Shown: positions 1-15,957 of the stretch, one piece after another
Position numbering within the stretch: the first letter of the stretch is position 1
How the letters are laid out: every line of letters begins with the position of its first letter
Source of the DNA: a virus
Reading direction: 5' to 3' (one strand)
IMG/VR virus record: IMGVR_UViG_3300034375_003172
Span: 1 to 26,117 of that record
Length of the DNA: 26,117 bases
Made by a program: the position numbers and the translations under genes
The notes under the pieces: generated by a model
Seen by the model: the letters and a program-made list of their open reading frames with translations, nothing else
What the model was told of the DNA's origin: nothing
Databases searched by the model: none

Positions 1-436
1 ATGGGAAAAGTTGCGCAAAGGAAACCCAATCAGCAAACATGAGGCCAAGAACATGATTGGCTATCTGAATGCGAACATCAAGCTCCCTGTGAAGGATCAA
101 TACTATGTCACAGACTTGGGGTTGCCAGACGAGGCCAGATCATTTGACTGGATGCAGATGTTGCGTGGAATCCCTGCTGATGAGCGTGAATATCTCAGAG
201 CCTGCATGCGCAATGGGGAGAAGTTCAGCGACAAACCAAGAATCAACATAAGTACAATCCACCAGTCCAAAGGTGGTGAGGCAGACAATGTCGTCCTGCT
301 GACAGACATGGGCAGGTTGAGTTGGGAGAACAGCCATTCAGACGAAGAAAACAGGGTCTGGTATGTGGCTCTGACACGTGCAAGAAAGAACTTGTTTTTG
401 GTCAGACCTCGTGGTTTACGATATTACAACTTGTAA
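1..436 (+). CDS. UvrD/Rep-like DNA helicase, C-terminal part (5' end outside window)
   Basis: The reading frame is open to the left edge (codons from base 2), so this is the tail of a larger superfamily 1 helicase. Two hallmarks are visible: motif V (TIHQSKGGEADNVVLL) and motif VI (ENRVWYVALTRARKNLFLV), with the two arginines that contact ATP in the family. SF1 helicases of this type unwind DNA 3'-5' during replication or repair. The Walker A and B motifs must lie upstream of the window. The TTG at 11 could be read as a start, but a protein beginning there would lack every ATP-binding motif, so I treat the gene as cut by the window edge. It is followed by about 100 bp holding promoter P1. Confidence 0.85.
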   Translation, partial: WEKLRKGNPISKHEAKNMIGYLNANIKLPVKDQYYVTDLGLPDEARSFDWMQMLRGIPADEREYLRACMRNGEKFSDKPRINISTIHQSKGGEADNVVLLTDMGRLSWENSHSDEENRVWYVALTRARKNLFLVRPRGLRYYNL

Positions 437-485
437 GTGTTTGATTTCATTGTTGAAAAAAGATGAAAAAATTGTCAAAAAAGTG

Positions 486-533
486 TTGCTTTTTGTACCA
501 GAAACAACGATAATAACTGTATTGAGAAAGGAG
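486..533 (+). promoter_or_regulatory. Promoter P1 (class A) with conserved leader
   Basis: -35 TTGCTT (486-491), a 17-bp spacer and -10 GATAAT (509-514), followed by the leader AACTGTATTGAGAAAGGAG, which includes the Shine-Dalgarno of the gene at 541. Spacer length and leader recur at four other places in the window. The -35 is preceded by A-rich DNA containing TTGTCAAAAAAG, which could act as an UP element. A weak TTTCA/TGAAA inverted repeat (445-458) lies roughly where P3 and P5 have a perfect palindrome. Confidence 0.8.
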
Positions 534-3260: not shown

Positions 3261-3269
3261 GAGATGAAT

Positions 3270-3527
3270 ATGTCAAAGTACAGTGATAAGTTAGTATCAG
3301 AAGTCATAGAGCTGAAAAATTCAGGCTTCACAGTAACTGAGATAACAGAAATCAAGAGATTGACCAGAAATCAAATTCAATACATTCTTTATCAGTTAAA
3401 ACGGGATTTGAAGGCCAAAGAGCCTGATAAGAAATTTGATCTTGATGCCATTGACCGAGAGAAAGAGCCGAAGAACCTTCATGTTCTTTCTTTCCTGCAA
3501 AGGCTGAAGAAATGTTTGTTTGGTTGA
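3270..3527 (+). CDS. Small helix-turn-helix protein (85 aa)
   Basis: Residues about 6-44 (DKLVSEVIELKNSGFTVTEI and RLTRNQIQYILYQLKRDL) read as a helix-turn-helix of the homeodomain-like/sigma region 4-like type, with the turn around NSGFT and a recognition helix RNQIQYILY. The C-terminus is charged and probably flexible. The start is ATG 3270, 6 nt after SD AGGAG (3259-3263); ATG 3264 would leave no spacing. It follows thyX by 9 bp and precedes a hairpin. It is a candidate for the regulator that binds one of the phage operators in this window, on position and fold only. Confidence 0.65.
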   Translation: MSKYSDKLVSEVIELKNSGFTVTEITEIKRLTRNQIQYILYQLKRDLKAKEPDKKFDLDAIDREKEPKNLHVLSFLQRLKKCLFG

Positions 3528-3534
3528 AATTTAT

Positions 3535-3560
3535 CCCTTTCCTATTGAGTTAGGAAAGGG
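3535..3560. other. Perfect stem-loop CCCTTTCCTA-TTGAGT-TAGGAAAGGG
   Basis: A 10-bp perfect inverted repeat with a 6-nt loop sits 8 bp after the stop of the HTH gene and 30 bp before the next start. No T-tract follows on either strand (TAAAATAAAG on +), so it is not a standard intrinsic terminator. It could stabilise or process mRNA, or be a protein-binding site. It stands where the other modules carry their -35 region. Confidence 0.7.
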
Positions 3561-3590: not shown

Positions 3591-4085
3591 ATGAACATAT
3601 TTTATTTATCTGAAGACCCAGTGACTGCTGCACGTTATCATTGCGACAAGCACGTCGTCAAGATGATACTGGAAACAGCACAGCTCCTCTGCACTGCACA
3701 TCGTGTTCTCGATGGCGACGATTATGCAGACCTTGAAGGCTTGTACAAAGCTGCATTCAAGAATCACCCTTGTGCTGTCTGGGTCAGGGAATCAAAGAGC
3801 AACTACATGTATGCCTACGAGCTTTTTGTCGCGTTGCTGACAGAGTACAAGCTCCGCTACGGCAAGATTCATGCTTGTGACAAGTTTGTGGACTCTTTGT
3901 CTTACACTCCTGTTAACACTGAGGGCTTATTCTTGACACCACCTGCTCAATGTATGCCGGACGAGTATAAACACAGCGACCCTGTCATCGCATACAGGCA
4001 ATACTACTGTGGCGAGAAAGCTAGGTTCGCAAAGTGGAAAAATGGAGGTGTGCCGTCATGGTTCTCAAATCTTATAGCCGCATAG
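3591..4085 (+). CDS. Conserved phage protein, weak T4 endonuclease V (DenV)-like layout
   Basis: 164 aa starting MNIFYLSEDPVTAARYHCDK. The start is ATG 3591, 7 nt after SD GAAAGGAT; the TTG at 3573 belongs to the leader. I recognise a family conserved in marine and T4-like phages but know no proven function. Its order of elements recalls T4 pyrimidine-dimer glycosylase: an N-terminal His/charged helix (HCDKHVVKMILE, 18-29), a central helix (YMYAYELFVALLTEY..RYG) and a C-terminal P-(D)EY-H...VPSWF stretch, compared with P-DYIPHE...PTWY in DenV. The catalytic N-terminal Thr of DenV is not present. The last 28 bp overlap a 3'-phosphatase gene, which fits a DNA-end role. The function remains uncertain. 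Confidence 0.6.
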   Translation: MNIFYLSEDPVTAARYHCDKHVVKMILETAQLLCTAHRVLDGDDYADLEGLYKAAFKNHPCAVWVRESKSNYMYAYELFVALLTEYKLRYGKIHACDKFVDSLSYTPVNTEGLFLTPPAQCMPDEYKHSDPVIAYRQYYCGEKARFAKWKNGGVPSWFSNLIAA

Positions 4086-5709: not shown

Positions 5710-5753
5710 GAACAATCGTGGGAATCATAGTGACATTGTTATGCTCAATATAA
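5691..5753 (+). CDS. 20-residue hydrophobic micro-peptide
   Basis: ATG 5691 is preceded by a strong SD (AAAAGGAG, 5673-5680; 10 nt spacing) that serves no other start. The peptide is MDPTVVG followed by an uninterrupted hydrophobic stretch (TIVGIIVTLL) and ends CSI, long enough for one short membrane helix with a GxxxG motif. It overlaps the end of the coiled-coil gene and the first 13 bp of the polymerase gene. It may be a true membrane peptide, or a translational-coupling leader that feeds ribosomes to the polymerase start, which has only a weak SD of its own. Confidence 0.5.
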   Translation: MDPTVVGTIVGIIVTLLCSI

Positions 5754-8551
5754 AAGTGAGGACGGAATACTCTTTCCGGAAAGCATATGGATCAGTACAA
5801 AAAGTCATTCAGACTTCAGGCGATGCTATTGGGATTTGTGATACTGGCACTTGGGGTCATGTCCCCTTCAGCAGTGCATGCAGAAAAGCAGGAAAGAAAC
5901 CCCTGCTCGGTGTCGAGATTGGAGTTGTCGCAGAGCCAACAGAGCGGACAAAGCAAGCTACAAATTTCATGTCATTCATCGCAAGAACAAACGCAGGATT
6001 GCAAGAGCTCTACGAGCTCGTGTCAAAAAGCACCAGCAATGACAACTTTTACTACTTCAATCGTTTGGGCTACTCTGACCTTTTTGATATCAGCGATGAT
6101 ATTCTGATCTTGACTGGGACTAACCCAGATTGGGGTCTGTTGCCATCGATAAAGAAAGACACGATGTTTGTTGAGCTCAACCCTATGAGTTCACCAAAAG
6201 CACTGGAGATGGCCAATAAAAAAGGTTTACGAGTTGTAGCCACTAGTGACAACTATTTCCCATCAGTAAAAGACAGGAAGGCATATGAGGTTTTGGTTGG
6301 CCGCAACAGGACAGACCGAACAGCTCCGATGCACATAATGAATGAGTGGGAGTGGAAGTCTGCGTTGCCTTGGGCACCACAAGAGGCCATTGACAATACC
6401 TATGTTGTTGCTGAGATGTGTAACGCAAACCTGCCGACAGCACAGATGGTTTCTTTTGATGCTCAAAAGACACTGCGTGAGATGTGTCAAGAAGGTGCTC
6501 CCCCAAGAGGTGTTGATCTGTCTGATCCAGAATACTCAGCTCGCCTAGACAGAGAGCTGCAACTGATTGCTGAGAAAAAGTTTGAGGATTACTTCTATGT
6601 AATCGCTGACATGATCAACTACGCAAAAGAGCACATGCTTGTTGGACCAGCACGAGGATCATCTGCTGGCTCTTTGGTTTGCTACTTGATAGGCATCACA
6701 GACATTGACCCGATCAAGCATGACCTACTGTTTGAACGATTCATTGACATCACTCGTGAGGATCTTCCGGACATCGACATCGACTTTCAGGACGACCGCA
6801 GAGAAATGGTGTTCGAATATCTCAGGCAAAAGTACGGAGCAGAGAAGGTTGCTCACCTTGGGACTGTGTCTCGCTACAAAGCCAAGAGCACTATCGCAGA
6901 GGTTGCCAAAGAGCTAGGCATCCCTGCTTGGGAAGTGAATGATCTGAAAGGAGCAATCATTGAGCGCAGCACAGGCGACTCTCGTGCAGCATTCTGTATC
7001 CTTGATACATTCAACGAGCTTGATGTTGGTCGGCAGGTTCTTGAAAAGTACCCACAAATGAAGATTGCCGCAGATATGGAAAATCATGCTCGGCACTCTG
7101 GGGTTCATGCGGCAGGGATTCTCGTCACAGAAGAGCCAGTCAGCAAGTATTGTTCTGTCAACTCTCAGACTGGTGCAGCACAGATAGACAAGAAAGATGC
7201 AGAATCGCTAAATTTGCTCAAAATCGATGCTCTTGGGCTCAGAACCTTGTCAGTACTGCAGGATGTCCTGGATCAAGTTGGTTGGACGAGGGATCAGATC
7301 GTCAACTACCAACTGGAAGACCCAGAGGCTTTTGCTATCCTTAATGATGAGAAATACGCTGGGATATTTCAGTTTGAGGGCTACGCACTTCAATCTGTGA
7401 CCCGTCAGATGAAGGTGCACAAGTTTGAGGACATCGCAGCAATCACTGCGTTGGCTCGTCCTGGACCACTCAACTCAGGAGGCACGACAGAGTACATCAA
7501 ACGCCACACAGGTGCAGCTCCTGTTCAGTACTTGCACCCTTTGACAGAAGGCATCACCAAAGTGACCAATGGTGTTGTGGTTTATCAAGAGCAGGTCATG
7601 ACTATCGGTCGTGATGTCGGCAAGCTCTCTTGGGAGGACGTTTCGACGTTACGGAAGGCCATGAGTAAGTCTCTCGGAAAAGAGTTCTTTGACACTTTTT
7701 GGGAGAAGTTCAAGGTTGGTGCTGCAGAGAATGGCATTGAAGAAGATCAAGCACAGCGCATCTGGGATAACATCAACACAATGGGGTCTTGGGCATTCAA
7801 CAGATCTCATGCGATTGCGTACGGATTGTTGAGCTACTGGTGCTGTGTTCTCAAGGCAAAGTTCCCTCTCGAGTTTGCAGCTGCATGTTTGCGCAATGTG
7901 AAGGACGACGAGCAGGGAATCAGGCTTTTGCGGGAAGTTGTCAAGGAAGGCTTGAGCTACAAGCCATATGACAAGTTCAAGTCAACACAGAACTGGTCTG
8001 TTCAAGATGGCGAGTTGATCGGTGGCCTGATCGGAATCAAGGGCATTGGTCCTAAAATGGCCGAGGACATCGTTTTCCGCAGGGAGATGTGCCAACCCCT
8101 GACCCCAAGACAAAACAAGCTCCTGGACGAAGGGGAGACGCCATACGACGATATTTTTGAGTGCGAGCGCAGATTCGGACACATAAAGGCCAATCCACAA
8201 GACCATAACATCGTTTCTCCGATCACAGACATTGTCGATCTGGATGGGGACAATCCAGGAATGTTCGTGTTCTTCGGCAAGCTCAAAGAGAAGAACTTGC
8301 GAGACATGAACGAGACAGTCAACCTAGCCAAGCGTGGCGGACGCAGAGTTGATCGCAACAACCTGTGGCTGAACGTCACTTTTGAAGATGACACTGGACC
8401 AATCATTTGCACCATTGATCGCTTCAAATATGACAAGATGGGCAAGCCCATTGTTGAGGACGGCAGATTGGGTGATTGGTATCTGATAAAAGGCCAAATC
8501 AAGGCTGGCTTCAGAAAAATTTATGTCGACAAATGGCGTAAGCTCACATAA
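5741..8551 (+). CDS. dnaE: C-family DNA polymerase (DNA polymerase III alpha/DnaE-like)
   Basis: The main replicase, 936 aa compared with about 1160 in E. coli DnaE. The order is: N-terminal PHP domain (1 to about 210); palm with GPARGSSAGSL (302-312), PDIDIDF with D344/D346/D348 holding the catalytic aspartates, and KIDALGLRTL with D496 as the third; thumb/fingers with VVYQEQVMTI and GLLSYWCCVLKAKFP; helix-hairpin-helix IGGLIGIKGIGPKMAE; and a shortened OB-like C-terminus. The PHP metal-binding His positions seem lost (TEYSFRKA for HxH, ICDTGTWG for TDH, ATSDNYFP near the third site). Proofreading therefore probably comes from the DEDDh exonuclease just upstream. The start at 5741 lies inside the micro-peptide gene. 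Confidence 0.95.
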   Translation: MLNIKVRTEYSFRKAYGSVQKVIQTSGDAIGICDTGTWGHVPFSSACRKAGKKPLLGVEIGVVAEPTERTKQATNFMSFIARTNAGLQELYELVSKSTSNDNFYYFNRLGYSDLFDISDDILILTGTNPDWGLLPSIKKDTMFVELNPMSSPKALEMANKKGLRVVATSDNYFPSVKDRKAYEVLVGRNRTDRTAPMHIMNEWEWKSALPWAPQEAIDNTYVVAEMCNANLPTAQMVSFDAQKTLREMCQEGAPPRGVDLSDPEYSARLDRELQLIAEKKFEDYFYVIADMINYAKEHMLVGPARGSSAGSLVCYLIGITDIDPIKHDLLFERFIDITREDLPDIDIDFQDDRREMVFEYLRQKYGAEKVAHLGTVSRYKAKSTIAEVAKELGIPAWEVNDLKGAIIERSTGDSRAAFCILDTFNELDVGRQVLEKYPQMKIAADMENHARHSGVHAAGILVTEEPVSKYCSVNSQTGAAQIDKKDAESLNLLKIDALGLRTLSVLQDVLDQVGWTRDQIVNYQLEDPEAFAILNDEKYAGIFQFEGYALQSVTRQMKVHKFEDIAAITALARPGPLNSGGTTEYIKRHTGAAPVQYLHPLTEGITKVTNGVVVYQEQVMTIGRDVGKLSWEDVSTLRKAMSKSLGKEFFDTFWEKFKVGAAENGIEEDQAQRIWDNINTMGSWAFNRSHAIAYGLLSYWCCVLKAKFPLEFAAACLRNVKDDEQGIRLLREVVKEGLSYKPYDKFKSTQNWSVQDGELIGGLIGIKGIGPKMAEDIVFRREMCQPLTPRQNKLLDEGETPYDDIFECERRFGHIKANPQDHNIVSPITDIVDLDGDNPGMFVFFGKLKEKNLRDMNETVNLAKRGGRRVDRNNLWLNVTFEDDTGPIICTIDRFKYDKMGKPIVEDGRLGDWYLIKGQIKAGFRKIYVDKWRKLT

Positions 8552-8557
8552 GTCTTT

Positions 8558-8573
8558 GTTTTTGATCAAAAAC
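8558..8573. promoter_or_regulatory. Palindrome GTTTTTGATCAAAAAC upstream of P3
   Basis: A perfect 16-bp palindrome beginning 7 bp after the polymerase stop. Its centre is 35.5 bp before the first base of the P3 -35 box, exactly the distance of the TTATTGATCAATAA palindrome from P5. Both share the core TTGATCAA. The stem is too AT-rich for a good terminator, so an activator or repressor site is more likely. Confidence 0.55.
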
Positions 8574-8600
8574 TATTTTTAATTATTTTTGACAAAATTG

Positions 8601-8648
8601 TTGCTTTTTTAGTTGAGATCACCGATAATAACTGTATTGAGAAAGGAG
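8601..8648 (+). promoter_or_regulatory. Promoter P3 (class A) with conserved leader
   Basis: -35 TTGCTT (8601-8606), a 17-bp spacer and -10 GATAAT (8624-8629), then AACTGTATTGAGAAAGGAG. Upstream TTTTTGACAAAATTG is the same as at P5. It drives the gene at 8655 after the polymerase. Confidence 0.85.
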
Positions 8649-8654
8649 CACATT

Positions 8655-9053
8655 ATGTCAGAACTGTTGAAGCACATCGAATCTTTAAATGCCCATGCTG
8701 ATCTTATGATGGAGCAGGAGCCAGGACTTTGGATGTCAAAGTGGACGGACGACTTGTCACATTGGAATGACATGGGTATTTTCACTGTTGAGGACTTTGA
8801 GCGCAACTCGTTGATCAACAACATCAGCGATGCTTCCAAAGAGCTGTATGGTTGCCGTCTTCGCCTTGAGTGGGATGAAATGTCAATTGAGCGTATGAAG
8901 GAAATGTATGCGAACATTTGCCATCAGCTCAACGAGCAGTATGAGGCAGAGAAAGAAGCTGAAGCTCTTGCTGCCGAGTGGAAGAAAGGTCTTCCTGATG
9001 ACTGTGAGCCTCTTCCTTACGAAGAGTATGCGTACCTAGAGGCTCAATGTTGA
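8655..9053 (+). CDS. Conserved hypothetical phage protein (132 aa)
   Basis: Starts at ATG 8655 behind P3, 6 nt after GGAG. The sequence is helical and acidic. WTDDLSHWNDMGIFTVEDFE and DASKELYGCRLRLEWDEMSI resemble a small domain common in phage genomes (D-hW-GI-T-eDFE followed by K-lYG-R-R), of unknown function. A Glu-rich helix (EQYEAEKEAEALAAEW) follows. The stop codon lies inside a 10-bp hairpin. It was placed first after a strong promoter, so it is probably abundant early in infection, but nothing shows what it does. Confidence 0.75.
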   Translation: MSELLKHIESLNAHADLMMEQEPGLWMSKWTDDLSHWNDMGIFTVEDFERNSLINNISDASKELYGCRLRLEWDEMSIERMKEMYANICHQLNEQYEAEKEAEALAAEWKKGLPDDCEPLPYEEYAYLEAQC

Positions 9054-9062
9054 GCCTCTTTT
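9038..9062 (+). terminator. Stem-loop at stop codon, possible leaky terminator
   Basis: AGAGGCTCAA-TG-TTGAGCCTCT is a perfect 10-bp inverted repeat followed by a short T run (TTTT, 9059-9062). The TGA stop (9051-9053) is inside the stem. The next gene starts 18 bp later with no promoter visible, so any termination must be partial; it may set the ratio of the two proteins or be an RNA-processing site. Confidence 0.6.
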
Positions 9063-9080
9063 GAGAGAAAGGAAATTATC

Positions 9081-9317
9081 ATGAGCAACGAAGTTTATTG
9101 GGCATTATTCATCGACGACGATTTCGATGGCTATTTCGAATCTGTTGAAGAGGCTAACAAGAAAGGCGAAGAGTCTGGCATGGATTTCTACGTCGAAGAG
9201 CGCGTTGACGAGCCTGACCAGTTTAACAGTGATGCTGAGGCTGATGCCGATGCGCTTGCGTCAGCAGGTTGGGGAACTGATGAAGACTATGGCTACTATG
9301 GCGGGGAGGACTACTGA
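9081..9317 (+). CDS. Very acidic small protein (78 aa), possible DNA mimic
   Basis: By my count 25 of 78 residues are Asp/Glu and only 3 are Lys/Arg, a net charge near -22. The protein opens with a beta-strand (EVYWALFIDDDFDGYF) and ends in an aromatic, Gly/Asp-rich tail (GTDEDYGYYGGEDY). The SD is AGAAAGGA before ATG 9081. Phage proteins this acidic sometimes imitate DNA to block restriction or other DNA-binding enzymes (Ocr of T7 is the known case); there is no sequence similarity to Ocr that I can see. A simple unknown acidic protein is equally possible. Confidence 0.7.
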   Translation: MSNEVYWALFIDDDFDGYFESVEEANKKGEESGMDFYVEERVDEPDQFNSDAEADADALASAGWGTDEDYGYYGGEDY

Positions 9318-9344
9318 TGTATCGTTTTAATTTGAAAATAGTTG

Positions 9345-9391
9345 TTGACTTTTTAGTCAGTTTGTAAGATAATATACATATTGAGAAAGGA
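9345..9391 (+). promoter_or_regulatory. Promoter P4 (class B) with conserved leader
   Basis: -35 TTGACT (9345-9350), a 17-bp spacer and -10 GATAAT (9368-9373), then ATACATATTGAGAAAGGAG. It is a near copy of P2 8.5 kb away and drives the candidate protease at 9399. Confidence 0.85.
9346..9359. promoter_or_regulatory. Candidate operator on P4: TGACT-TTTT-AGTCA
   Basis: An inverted repeat with 5-bp arms sits on the -35 box, in the same position as TGACTA-TT-TAGTCA on P2. Keeping the arms while the centre changed suggests selection on a dimer-binding site; this is inference. Confidence 0.5.
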
Positions 9392-9398
9392 GCACATT

Positions 9399-9893
9399 AT
9401 GAAACATACACCATCCCGTCGCCAAGTAACTGATCGTCTCGGAAACCTCCGTAAGACGTGGTGTGGCCCATATGCCTTGGCAGTTGTTGCAGGCAAGACC
9501 TACGAGTTTGCCTACCAGATGCTGAAGCAGATCCGTGGCAAGCGTCATGCTTGTGGTGTCTACAACACCAACATGGATAAGGCTTTTGGCTTCTGTGGCC
9601 TCAAGGCTGAGTTTGTCAAGGCTGAGAAGCGTTGCAATCTTCGCAAGTACATTGATGAGTACTTGGCTCCCAACAAGCTGTACATCATCAACATCACTCG
9701 CCACTATGTGGTAGTTGATACCCGCGATCATACCACGATCGACAACCAGAACCCTGAGTGGGTTCCTACCGAGAACAGCAAGCACCTCCGCTGTCTCGTA
9801 CAGTGTGTTGCTGAGATCAAGAATCCAGCAATCGAGCCTCTGCACCAGAACGCAGAGTTCGACTTCGGATTGACCAACTGGAAGAGCGCGTAA
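9399..9893 (+). CDS. Papain/C39-like cysteine peptidase-fold protein
   Basis: 164 aa; start ATG 9399 behind P4. WCGPYALAVVAG (21-32) has the Cys at the head of a hydrophobic helix, as in C39/papain-type peptidases. RHYVVVDTRDHTTIDNQ (101-117) supplies the matching His (H102) and Asp (D115) in paired strands. The triad C22-H102-D115 is therefore complete in order and spacing, though no database check was possible. There is no transporter domain and no signal peptide, so it would act in the host cytoplasm. It has its own promoter and is far from the virion genes, which suggests a host-takeover or regulatory role rather than head maturation. It ends in TAATG. Confidence 0.6.
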   Translation: MKHTPSRRQVTDRLGNLRKTWCGPYALAVVAGKTYEFAYQMLKQIRGKRHACGVYNTNMDKAFGFCGLKAEFVKAEKRCNLRKYIDEYLAPNKLYIINITRHYVVVDTRDHTTIDNQNPEWVPTENSKHLRCLVQCVAEIKNPAIEPLHQNAEFDFGLTNWKSA

Positions 9894-10204
9894 TGCGCTC
9901 GACCATTCCTCTGGTAGAGGATTTCGTGATTGAAGACATGACCCACTGGCCAGAATATGACTGTGGGTTTTCCATTTTGGCTCGCATGGAAAATGGCGAT
10001 ATCTGGATCAGCAACTGGCTGTTGGCAGATTGGGAAGAAGCATTCAAGCACATGGAGATAATATCTAGCATTCACAAAAAGCAGTATGAAAACAAGCCTG
10101 ATGGAATCCTTCACCACTTCAAGTTCAATGGTTGGACAAAAGCAAAGCACAAATGGATTCGTCTTGATGAGATGAACATTCCAACGTTCGGAAGAGCTAA
10201 GTAG
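9893..10204 (+). CDS. Hypothetical protein (103 aa)
   Basis: Not recognised. It starts in the TAATG overlap with the candidate peptidase, so it is co-translated and may be its partner. It is rich in Trp (six by count) and His, with FSILARMENGDIWISNWLLADWEEAFKH style alternating strands and helices that suggest one compact domain. No known motif, membrane segment or signal peptide was found. It ends just before a palindrome and promoter P5. Confidence 0.65.
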   Translation: MRSTIPLVEDFVIEDMTHWPEYDCGFSILARMENGDIWISNWLLADWEEAFKHMEIISSIHKKQYENKPDGILHHFKFNGWTKAKHKWIRLDEMNIPTFGRAK

Positions 10205-10207
10205 CTG

Positions 10208-10221
10208 TTATTGATCAATAA
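10208..10221. promoter_or_regulatory. Palindrome TTATTGATCAATAA upstream of P5
   Basis: A perfect 14-bp palindrome 3 bp after the previous stop. It shares the core TTGATCAA with the site before P3, and its centre is again 35.5 bp before the first base of the -35 box. Confidence 0.55.
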
Positions 10222-10249
10222 AAAAGTTTATTTATTTTTGACAAAATTG

Positions 10250-10297
10250 TTGCTTTTTGTCACAAGATCAACGATAATAATACTATTGAGAAAGGAG
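10250..10297 (+). promoter_or_regulatory. Promoter P5 (class A) with conserved leader
   Basis: -35 TTGCTT (10250-10255), a 17-bp spacer and -10 GATAAT (10273-10278), then AATACTATTGAGAAAGGAG. Upstream TTTTTGACAAAATTG equals that of P3. It drives the three-gene unit OB-fold protein, SNF2 helicase and nuclease. Confidence 0.85.
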
Positions 10298-13696: not shown

Positions 13697-15957
13697 TGCT
13701 GTGTCGCTTGCAAAATCTGCTCTCTGGCTGTTGGCGACAAACCTTCAACTACATTCTTAACAGCGGGAGGAGTTTCTTCCATGTCTTCCGTAGTCAGCTC
13801 TGGCCTCAGAGAAGCAGCAACTGTTGAAGTTAGTAGCGGTTGTTGAGTTCTTGCTGTGTATTGACGGACAGCATCACGAGCTTGACCTGCTGCAGCCATG
13901 CCCTCTCCAGCCTCAATCGCTTCCCTTACGAATGGTATGAATTTGCCGTATTGAAGTATCCCTGCACGAGCCATTCCTGAAAGAATCGTGTAGCCTGATC
14001 CCGATGGGTTGAGTTTGATCTCCGCCCAAAGTGTTGGCATCACATTCTTTCGGAACTCGGCAATCCTAGCGAGCTCGTCCGGAGTGAATACTTGTTCCAT
14101 CAATTTTTTATTTTTTACGAACACATCGTCGTAGCTATTGACGATCGCTGTCCTAGTTATGCCACCTGCTCTTCCGCCAGTGAAGGCTTTCTCAAGTATG
14201 CCGTCTTTGAGCAAAGCGACAACTTCTGCATACTGCTCTGCTGGCATGTTCTGCTCGAGCTTTTTGAGCGCAAGACCTATCGCTTGATTTGGTGCGAACT
14301 TGGCGTGACCGAACAAAATATTGGCGACTTGAAGTGGCGTGTACTCTGGGTTGCTAAGAGTCTCTAGAATCTTGTTTGCAGCTTTCTGCGGAGAAGTTGC
14401 TGCAGTTCCTTTCCCAGTCATCCCGATGTATTGCTTGTAGAGGCCTGTTGCTTCTTTGAGTTGATCAATGACTACTTGATCGCCTGTTATCAAACCTTTT
14501 TCAATGCCATCAAAAACAGTCTCATCAACAACAGCTTTGATCCTGCCTAAAGCAAGAGCCTCTGGAGTTCCAGGAGTTGCCTGTCTTGATGCGGCATTCA
14601 GTGATTTCTGATAAGCGTGCAGCTGAGTCAGATTTATGCCTTCAAGAGTCCCTTCCTCTGCAGCCTTCAATAGTTGCTGGAGATATTTGACCTCACCACT
14701 CAGAATTGGCATTTGAGCTAGCAATCTTTCTTCAATGCCTAGGTCGTCAACAACAGACAAAGCATTGTTAGCCATAGTAACACGACCTTCAGTTGTAAGC
14801 AGTGGCTGATCAACAGCCTCTTTTACAGCTTCATAGCCTTCTTTTGCAGCTTGTTTAGTTTGCGTAGCTTGTTTCTGAACAACTCCTGCAGCAGTTTCTG
14901 CAGCAGCTAACGGGACGCTCTCCGCCCCAGTCACAGCTTTAGAGCCTGACCCAAACTCATCCTGAAGAGCACGAGCATCAGCTCGAATGGCTTCAATCTG
15001 TGTGTCATCAAAGCCACGCAAAATCGATTGAGCAGTCGGGTCGGTGCTAGGAGCACGACGCATGACATCTTCAGCTTCCAACTGCTCTGTAACTTTTTCT
15101 GTCGGTGTGGATCTATCTGGCAGTGGGGCTGTCCTCTGGCCAGACGTCAATGGGTATTTTGATTCCTGCTGAGCACCGCCACCAGCACGTTGTGCTAATG
15201 ACTCAAGAACTGGAGTTATGCGAGGAGCTGTAGCTCTTACAACTTCTGTCGCACCTTCAACCACAGGCTTTGCAACAGCTCCAACACCTTTACTGATGCC
15301 TTTGACCAAAGGTGGCAATAGTACATCTGCACCAACGCCAACCCCAGTCGCAATTGCAACGTCTTTTGCCAGATCACCAACACCCTCTTTTTTCTGTGCT
15401 GTTGTTTCTGGTGTGAGAGAAGCCTCAATGCCTTTCCCACCAAGCTCTGTTGTTGAGTAGGCTGGCAAGCCCCTCATGATAGTTTGGCCAGTAGTTTTAG
15501 CACCGCTAACAAGTTTGGTTGCTGGCAGGTACTTGTAGATTTCACCAGTCAATGTCCCGATATCTTGCTCTGAGATTCCTGGCTTGTTGACGTAGTATGG
15601 CTTGTCGTTCCAGATGATCATCGGGTGATTGAACTCGTCGGAGTAGACGCCACCAAAACGCTCGTCACCTTTGAACTGATTCTTGATTACTTCAGCCTTG
15701 CCCCAATCATCACGAGTGAACATCAATCGCACATTGGTCCCGAAAGCATCCCAAAAGCCAACGTCTGGGATATCTGTTGCTTCTGGCACAGTTGGGTATT
15801 CTAGCTCTACGCCATGGCCTGTTGCTGCTTGATACAAGCCTTTGACAACATCTGCAGCTTGATCAGAGAGTGAGACTTCTTCTGTTTCAGTCTGTTCGTC
15901 AAGAATCGGACCACTACCACCAACTGTACCTGCACCTGCAGGGACTTGTAAACCCAT
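13693..15957 (-). CDS. Large helical virion protein, candidate ejection protein (754 aa)
   Basis: I chose ATG 15957 (TAATG overlap with the gene before, GGGGAG 9 nt upstream) over ATG 15972, which has no SD spacing. The N-terminus is Gly-rich; a small globular part follows (about 80-140, with YSDEFNHPMIIWNDKPYYVN). About residues 190-240 are a hydrophobic Gly/Val/Ala segment (VAIATGVGVGADVLLPPLV) that could enter a membrane. The remainder is a long Ala/Glu/Lys helical region. Length, helicity and place at the end of the structural run recall the largest internal/ejection proteins of podoviruses. No lytic transglycosylase motif was seen. The role is inferred, not recognised. Confidence 0.6.
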   Translation of the reverse strand: MGLQVPAGAGTVGGSGPILDEQTETEEVSLSDQAADVVKGLYQAATGHGVELEYPTVPEATDIPDVGFWDAFGTNVRLMFTRDDWGKAEVIKNQFKGDERFGGVYSDEFNHPMIIWNDKPYYVNKPGISEQDIGTLTGEIYKYLPATKLVSGAKTTGQTIMRGLPAYSTTELGGKGIEASLTPETTAQKKEGVGDLAKDVAIATGVGVGADVLLPPLVKGISKGVGAVAKPVVEGATEVVRATAPRITPVLESLAQRAGGGAQQESKYPLTSGQRTAPLPDRSTPTEKVTEQLEAEDVMRRAPSTDPTAQSILRGFDDTQIEAIRADARALQDEFGSGSKAVTGAESVPLAAAETAAGVVQKQATQTKQAAKEGYEAVKEAVDQPLLTTEGRVTMANNALSVVDDLGIEERLLAQMPILSGEVKYLQQLLKAAEEGTLEGINLTQLHAYQKSLNAASRQATPGTPEALALGRIKAVVDETVFDGIEKGLITGDQVVIDQLKEATGLYKQYIGMTGKGTAATSPQKAANKILETLSNPEYTPLQVANILFGHAKFAPNQAIGLALKKLEQNMPAEQYAEVVALLKDGILEKAFTGGRAGGITRTAIVNSYDDVFVKNKKLMEQVFTPDELARIAEFRKNVMPTLWAEIKLNPSGSGYTILSGMARAGILQYGKFIPFVREAIEAGEGMAAAGQARDAVRQYTARTQQPLLTSTVAASLRPELTTEDMEETPPAVKNVVEGLSPTAREQILQATQQ

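Follow-up and report, generated by a model that had tools for sequence, protein, structure and literature searches.

Upstream boxes of the IHF type in stepped distances from sigma-70 promoters: a candidate architecture of environmental phage promoters

Genes and promoters of the window

The DNA analysed here (the window) comprises 26,117 bases of an IMG/VR virus record and is a fragment of a dsDNA marine phage. A near-identity search of the named phages with the window gave no match, and the closest named records for its Pol III alpha were Vibrio phage VA-RY-3 and Cronobacter phage Ss1 with about 43% protein identity (tblastn). Five promoters are present, each composed of a -35 element, a 17-bp spacer, the -10 element GATAAT and the ribosome site TTGAGAAAGGAG. 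Their -35 elements start at 486 (P1), 781 (P2), 8601 (P3), 9345 (P4) and 10250 (P5) and fall into two classes, with TTGCTT in P1, P3 and P5 and TTGACT in P2 and P4. The features referred to in the following are:

434-446, plus strand: IHF-type core of P1, TAAGTGTTTGATT (9/9 to YAANNNNYTGATW; A-tract AAAAAA at 456-461)
486-514, plus strand: P1 (-35 TTGCTT 486-491, 17-bp spacer, -10 GATAAT 509-514)
3264-3527, plus strand: 87-aa HTH protein with weak family matches only, proposed earlier as binder
5741-8551: Pol III alpha gene (DnaE-type DNA polymerase III alpha)
8549-8561, plus strand: IHF-type core of P3, TAAGTCTTTGTTT (8/9; overlaps the Pol III alpha stop codon)
8558-8573, no strand: perfect palindrome GTTTTTGATCAAAAAC at P3, with TTGATCAA at 8562-8569
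8589-8609, plus strand: TTGACAAAATTGTTGCTTTTT, 21/21 identical in P5 (10238-10258), a sign of paralogous promoters
8601-8629, plus strand: P3 (-35 TTGCTT 8601-8606, -10 GATAAT 8624-8629; ribosome site TATTGAGAAAGGAG at 8635-8648)
10198-10210, plus strand: IHF-type core of P5, TAAGTAGCTGTTA (8/9; A-tract AAAAAA at 10220-10225)
10208-10221, no strand: perfect palindrome TTATTGATCAATAA at P5
10250-10278, plus strand: P5 (-35 TTGCTT 10250-10255, -10 GATAAT 10273-10278; ribosome site at 10284-10297)

From the box described below through the ribosome site, P3 and P5 are identical in 80 of 100 bp, and the first 52 bp alone comprise 42 identical positions, compared to a maximum of 34 among shuffles. 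Judged by this similarity of sequence, the two are paralogous promoters and not independent cases.

The second promoter class, P2 and P4, lacks the arrangement of box and palindrome seen in the first. Both of its members carry an inverted repeat overlapping the -35 element (P2: 783-794, GACTATTTAGTC; P4: 9347-9358, GACTTTTTAGTC) and nearly identical spacers, and these repeats are possible repressor operators of this class. A strong hairpin, CCCTTTCCTATTGAGTTAGGAAAGGG, at 3535-3560 immediately precedes TAAAAT and the gene at 3591; the relative L005 has another sequence in its place.

The conserved box and its distance to the -35 element

Since the window is a fragment, an alignment of the promoters of the complete genome was replaced by an alignment in relatives. 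With the Pol III alpha gene, 67 related loci were retrieved from IMG/VR, and 16 of the relatives' records (23-56 kb each) were examined at full length. In this material 68 promoter clusters were detected from the ribosome site, the -10 and the -35 element alone, without presupposing any upstream box; the loci and promoters compared share ancestry, and the sequences are not fully independent.

The element that is kept in the relatives overlies the palindromes and reads TAAGTCnTTG(A/T)TW-N8-A/T-tract. It is present in P1, P3 and P5, always with its first base exactly 52 bp ahead of the -35 element (434 to 486, 8549 to 8601 and 10198 to 10250). P1 had been credited with a mere weak inverted repeat in this region; its TAAGTGTTTGATT starts 52 bp before the -35 element, just as TAAGT does in P3 and P5, and P1 had been overlooked since it is not the palindrome that is conserved. 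Immediately after the stop codon of Pol III alpha, relatives down to 70% protein identity show TAAGTCnTTGnTTTnATTGAAAA and similar sequences, none of them with TTGATCAA, and the box was also observed ahead of other promoters in the same genomes.

In the dyad count, TAA-N4-TTG occurred in 27 of the 68 promoter clusters compared to 4.1 expected, while a YAA-N4-TTG box was missing in 39. The distances from its first base to the -35 element are not continuous, but cluster at 31-32, 41 and 51-52 bp and are rarely 45 or 55-56 bp; by single offsets, 10 boxes were counted at 32 bp, 3 at 41 bp, 12 at 51-52 bp and few at others. The same holds true if IHF cores with at most one mismatch to YAANNNNYTGATW are counted: 27 were located at five in-phase offsets versus 5 at the other 58 offsets, and a Markov null gave 0.8 in-phase cores with a maximum of 5 in 300 runs. 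The box always has one orientation relative to the promoter, and cores in reversed orientation numbered only 6, at scattered offsets. In the window as a whole, IHF cores occur at chance frequency (61 vs 58). Single genomes mix the spacing classes (41 and 51 bp in G004, 32 and 51 bp in G011), and for the homologous promoter behind Pol III alpha at least eight changes of class were counted on the protein tree, the backbone of which is weakly supported. The clustering of the distances supports the earlier proposal of an upstream protein bound in fixed helical phase.

Two further observations were made on the box in relatives. Behind Pol III alpha in L111-L112 (G006) and L121-L122 (G016), it is replaced by TAAAACTTTTTTTAAAAAGGTTGGTTTTATAGGCATTTGC, and the promoter is normal. 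Furthermore, pairs of TAAGTC-like boxes flank about 85-95 bp near a strand switch, together with repeats of the GGGAAAC/GAAACCAG type, in L102-L103 (G002, minus strand near 27437-27534) and L119 (G015, minus strand 13974-14059); a replication origin or control region is possible for these regions.

Occurrence in other environmental phages

For a survey of 2.9 million viral contigs in IMG/VR, TAAGTCNTTG followed by TTTACT and ATAAT was searched with any gap of 11-41. Box and promoter were found together in 119 stretches, the majority with a distance of 30-32 or 40-42 bp, whereas 18 stretches were obtained with a scrambled box and, as judged by match lengths, not one of them at these distances. 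A second scan with TTGCYT added the class of 51-52 bp among the matches listed. In-phase matches were intergenic in 75 of 90 cases, out-of-phase matches in 12 of 35. Some of the contigs bearing the box resemble T4-like phages, and the architecture therefore extends beyond the clade of the window. The box was not found in the examined stretches of Vibrio phage VA-RY-3 and Cronobacter phage Ss1, nor phased boxes in Methylophilales phage Melnitz, and a literature search for the box strings found no paper containing them in a relevant context.

Likeness of the box to IHF sites

The published consensus for IHF is WATCARNNNNTTR; the opposite arm of the site often bears an A-tract, and IHF introduces two kinks into the DNA that are 9 bp apart (PMC8421141). 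Read in reverse, this consensus is matched by the boxes of P1, P3 and P5 to the extent listed above; at box position 11, many sites including P3 and P5 carry T instead of A. Both in the family and in the IMG/VR sites, an A/T-tract occupies positions 22-28 on the arm opposite the core, as in IHF sites. P1 and P5 have AAAAAA at positions 23-28, and P3 is less clear (A20-24, T28-32). Of the steps that vary, the pyrimidine-purine ones peak at 6/7 and 15/16, that is 9 bp apart, with varying bases across the box sites, and in P1, P3 and P5 themselves the step is kept at 15/16 only. These steps presumably coincide with the kink positions of IHF, which we place here according to the 1IHF complex.

The N4 of the box is strongly GT(C/T)A, although it is free in IHF sites. 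This preference exceeds the known need of IHF and is the main doubt on the assignment, as the binder could thus be a more selective one. Accordingly, a sequence-specific activator other than IHF, of host or phage origin, which recognises TAAGTCnTTGAT and touches RNA polymerase from the same helical face, has to be considered, and the evidence from phasing would be identical for such a protein. Nonetheless, we regard it as unlikely: in combination, the YAA-N4-TTGATW core, the steps 9 bp apart and an A/T-tract with the correct arm and distance fit IHF. Moreover, the box is common to unrelated phages, so that these would need to have any phage-encoded binder in common as well, and the lone HTH candidate tested is not universal.

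The palindromes of P3 and P5

In the sequence-only reading, the palindromes themselves were the binding sites. The described geometry is exact in both cases: the centres of TTGATCAA lie at 8565.5 (P3) and 10214.5 (P5) and TTGCTT starts at 8601 and 10250, which results in a distance of 35.5 bp twice. In the window, TTGATCAA occurs 5 times compared to 1.3 expected. Taken at face value, TTGATCAA could be the operator of a dimeric transcription factor centred near -71, possibly the HTH protein at 3264. In favour of this, no other perfect palindrome of the window reaches 14 bp, both have this one offset, and their flanks differ by one symmetrical change (T to A, A to T). However, P3 and P5 are paralogous, and because of their 80% identity over 100 bp the shared core can be a matter of descent. 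The relatives keep the promoter and the wider box without TTGATCAA or its symmetry, the dyad symmetry of their linker being at chance level (2 of 28 sites at p<0.05). Such a loss of the palindrome next to a retained promoter is what the sequence-only reading had itself named as refuting it. Even in L439, with 99% protein identity, the arms of the P5 palindrome are broken to TTATTGATCAAGAA (L439:889), while the TAAGT box and the promoter are retained. Outside the species cluster of the window, TTGATCAA was found 39 bp before TTGCYT in 11 IMG/VR contigs; almost all of these occurrences fall within long open frames and lack a box, which points to occurrence at this offset only by chance. On account of lost symmetry, chance-only matches and the broken arms in L439, the palindrome was rejected as a conserved operator. 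Altogether, it is probably not the functional unit, and the operator reading is rather improbable.

The same holds true for the HTH protein, which had been named as the candidate binder. Its place adjoins thyX and is taken by other HTH proteins in several relatives, but G010, G012 and G013 carry the box with no HTH protein at the syntenic place. This makes it an unlikely binder and speaks against it as a necessary one for the box as a whole; the protein may have another target.

TTGATCAA of P3 and P5 fills positions 14-21 of the box, the linker between the IHF-type core and the A/T-tract, and keeps the 15/16 step. If the box is an IHF site, the two palindromes are to be seen as a lineage-specific variant of this linker, inherited by duplication.

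Descent and transcript ends as explanations

Boxes and spacing classes might also stem from the descent of one copied promoter cassette with no bound protein, the A/T-rich DNA acting as an intrinsically curved or UP-like element. The promoters are related, the upstream DNA is A/T-rich and P3 and P5 are duplicated. However, curvature does not need a strict TAA-N4-TTG with internal G/C, jumps of about 10 bp occur inside one genome and at one homologous place, and equal steps are found in unrelated phages. Pure descent is slightly less credible still than the palindromic operator.

That the palindromes are transcript ends, i.e. intrinsic terminators of the upstream genes, can practically be dismissed: although they lie just behind stop codons and T-rich DNA follows the one at P3, their folding is weak (-2.9 and -2.2 kcal/mol) and, with z of -0.45 and +0.42, no better than that of shuffles, the palindromes are absent from the terminator list, and relatives have neither hairpin nor T-run. 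The rejection was based on RNA folding at shuffle level and agrees with the sequence-only reading, in which leftover terminators had been discounted.

Proposed stimulation by host IHF

In our assessment, P1, P3 and P5 are probably promoters for the host's sigma-70, and upstream of each of them host IHF would bind and bend the DNA in helical register to stimulate transcription (probability roughly 0.7). The site would consist of TAAGTCnTTG(A/T)TW, 8 bp and the A/T-tract. Host IHF, binding there, would wrap about 35 bp and, by a bend of about 160 degrees, direct the upstream DNA back toward the promoter-bound RNA polymerase, and this fold would raise initiation at the downstream gene. With the -35 element starting near -35, the centre of the IHF core would lie near -77 if the spacing is 52 bp; spacings of 41 and 32 bp would bring it closer by about one and two turns. 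The distance would change only by steps of about one turn because the bend must face the right side of the helix. The host would have to possess IHF. None of the 17 phage records examined contains a gene of the HU/IHF family. A search of bacterial genomes with Pol III alpha for the host retrieved cellular Pol III genes only.

Beyond the window, we consider it an even chance that promoters of environmental phages commonly follow this plan, which has not been described so far: an oriented IHF-type box (TAAGTCATTGATT-N9-T/A-tract) would lie about 31-32, 41 or 51-52 bp from the -35 element, and host IHF would activate the expression of phage genes in general, at least in the Pol-III-alpha phages of this window and the T4-like contigs. 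If true, the positioning of an architectural protein at promoters in phase with the helix, which is known from insertions engineered in E. coli, would have a natural counterpart in a rule of evolution that holds for many phages. Phage promoters in metagenomes could further be searched by this signature, a dependence of these phages on host IHF would be predicted, and natural variants differing by 10 bp in their spacing would be at hand as promoters for tests.

Comparison with known systems

The early promoter Pe of phage Mu likewise has an IHF site in its upstream region. There, a single promoter in another sequence context is concerned, and we know of no stepped spacing across a clade for it. 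A further resemblance exists to the lambda PL promoter, which is stimulated by IHF (Giladi et al. 1998, as cited in PMC2753651 and PMC1784095). There, the site for host IHF lies upstream of a phage promoter of the sigma-70 type and has been proposed to bring the DNA ahead of the promoter to RNA polymerase. In contrast to this single promoter, the box described here is present in multiple copies and at stepped distances, ahead of several promoters and in many phages, and IHF is its putative binder. For the dependence on phase, the closest parallel is glpFK, where an IHF site derived from IS5 works upstream with an insertion of 10 bp, but not of 5 bp (PMC2753651). That system differs in the origin of the site from an insertion sequence, in the bacterial promoter and in the greater distance, the phase having been tested by insertions at -117.5. 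What it has in common with the putative IHF sites described here are the A-tracts, and activation at glpFK depends on helical phase.
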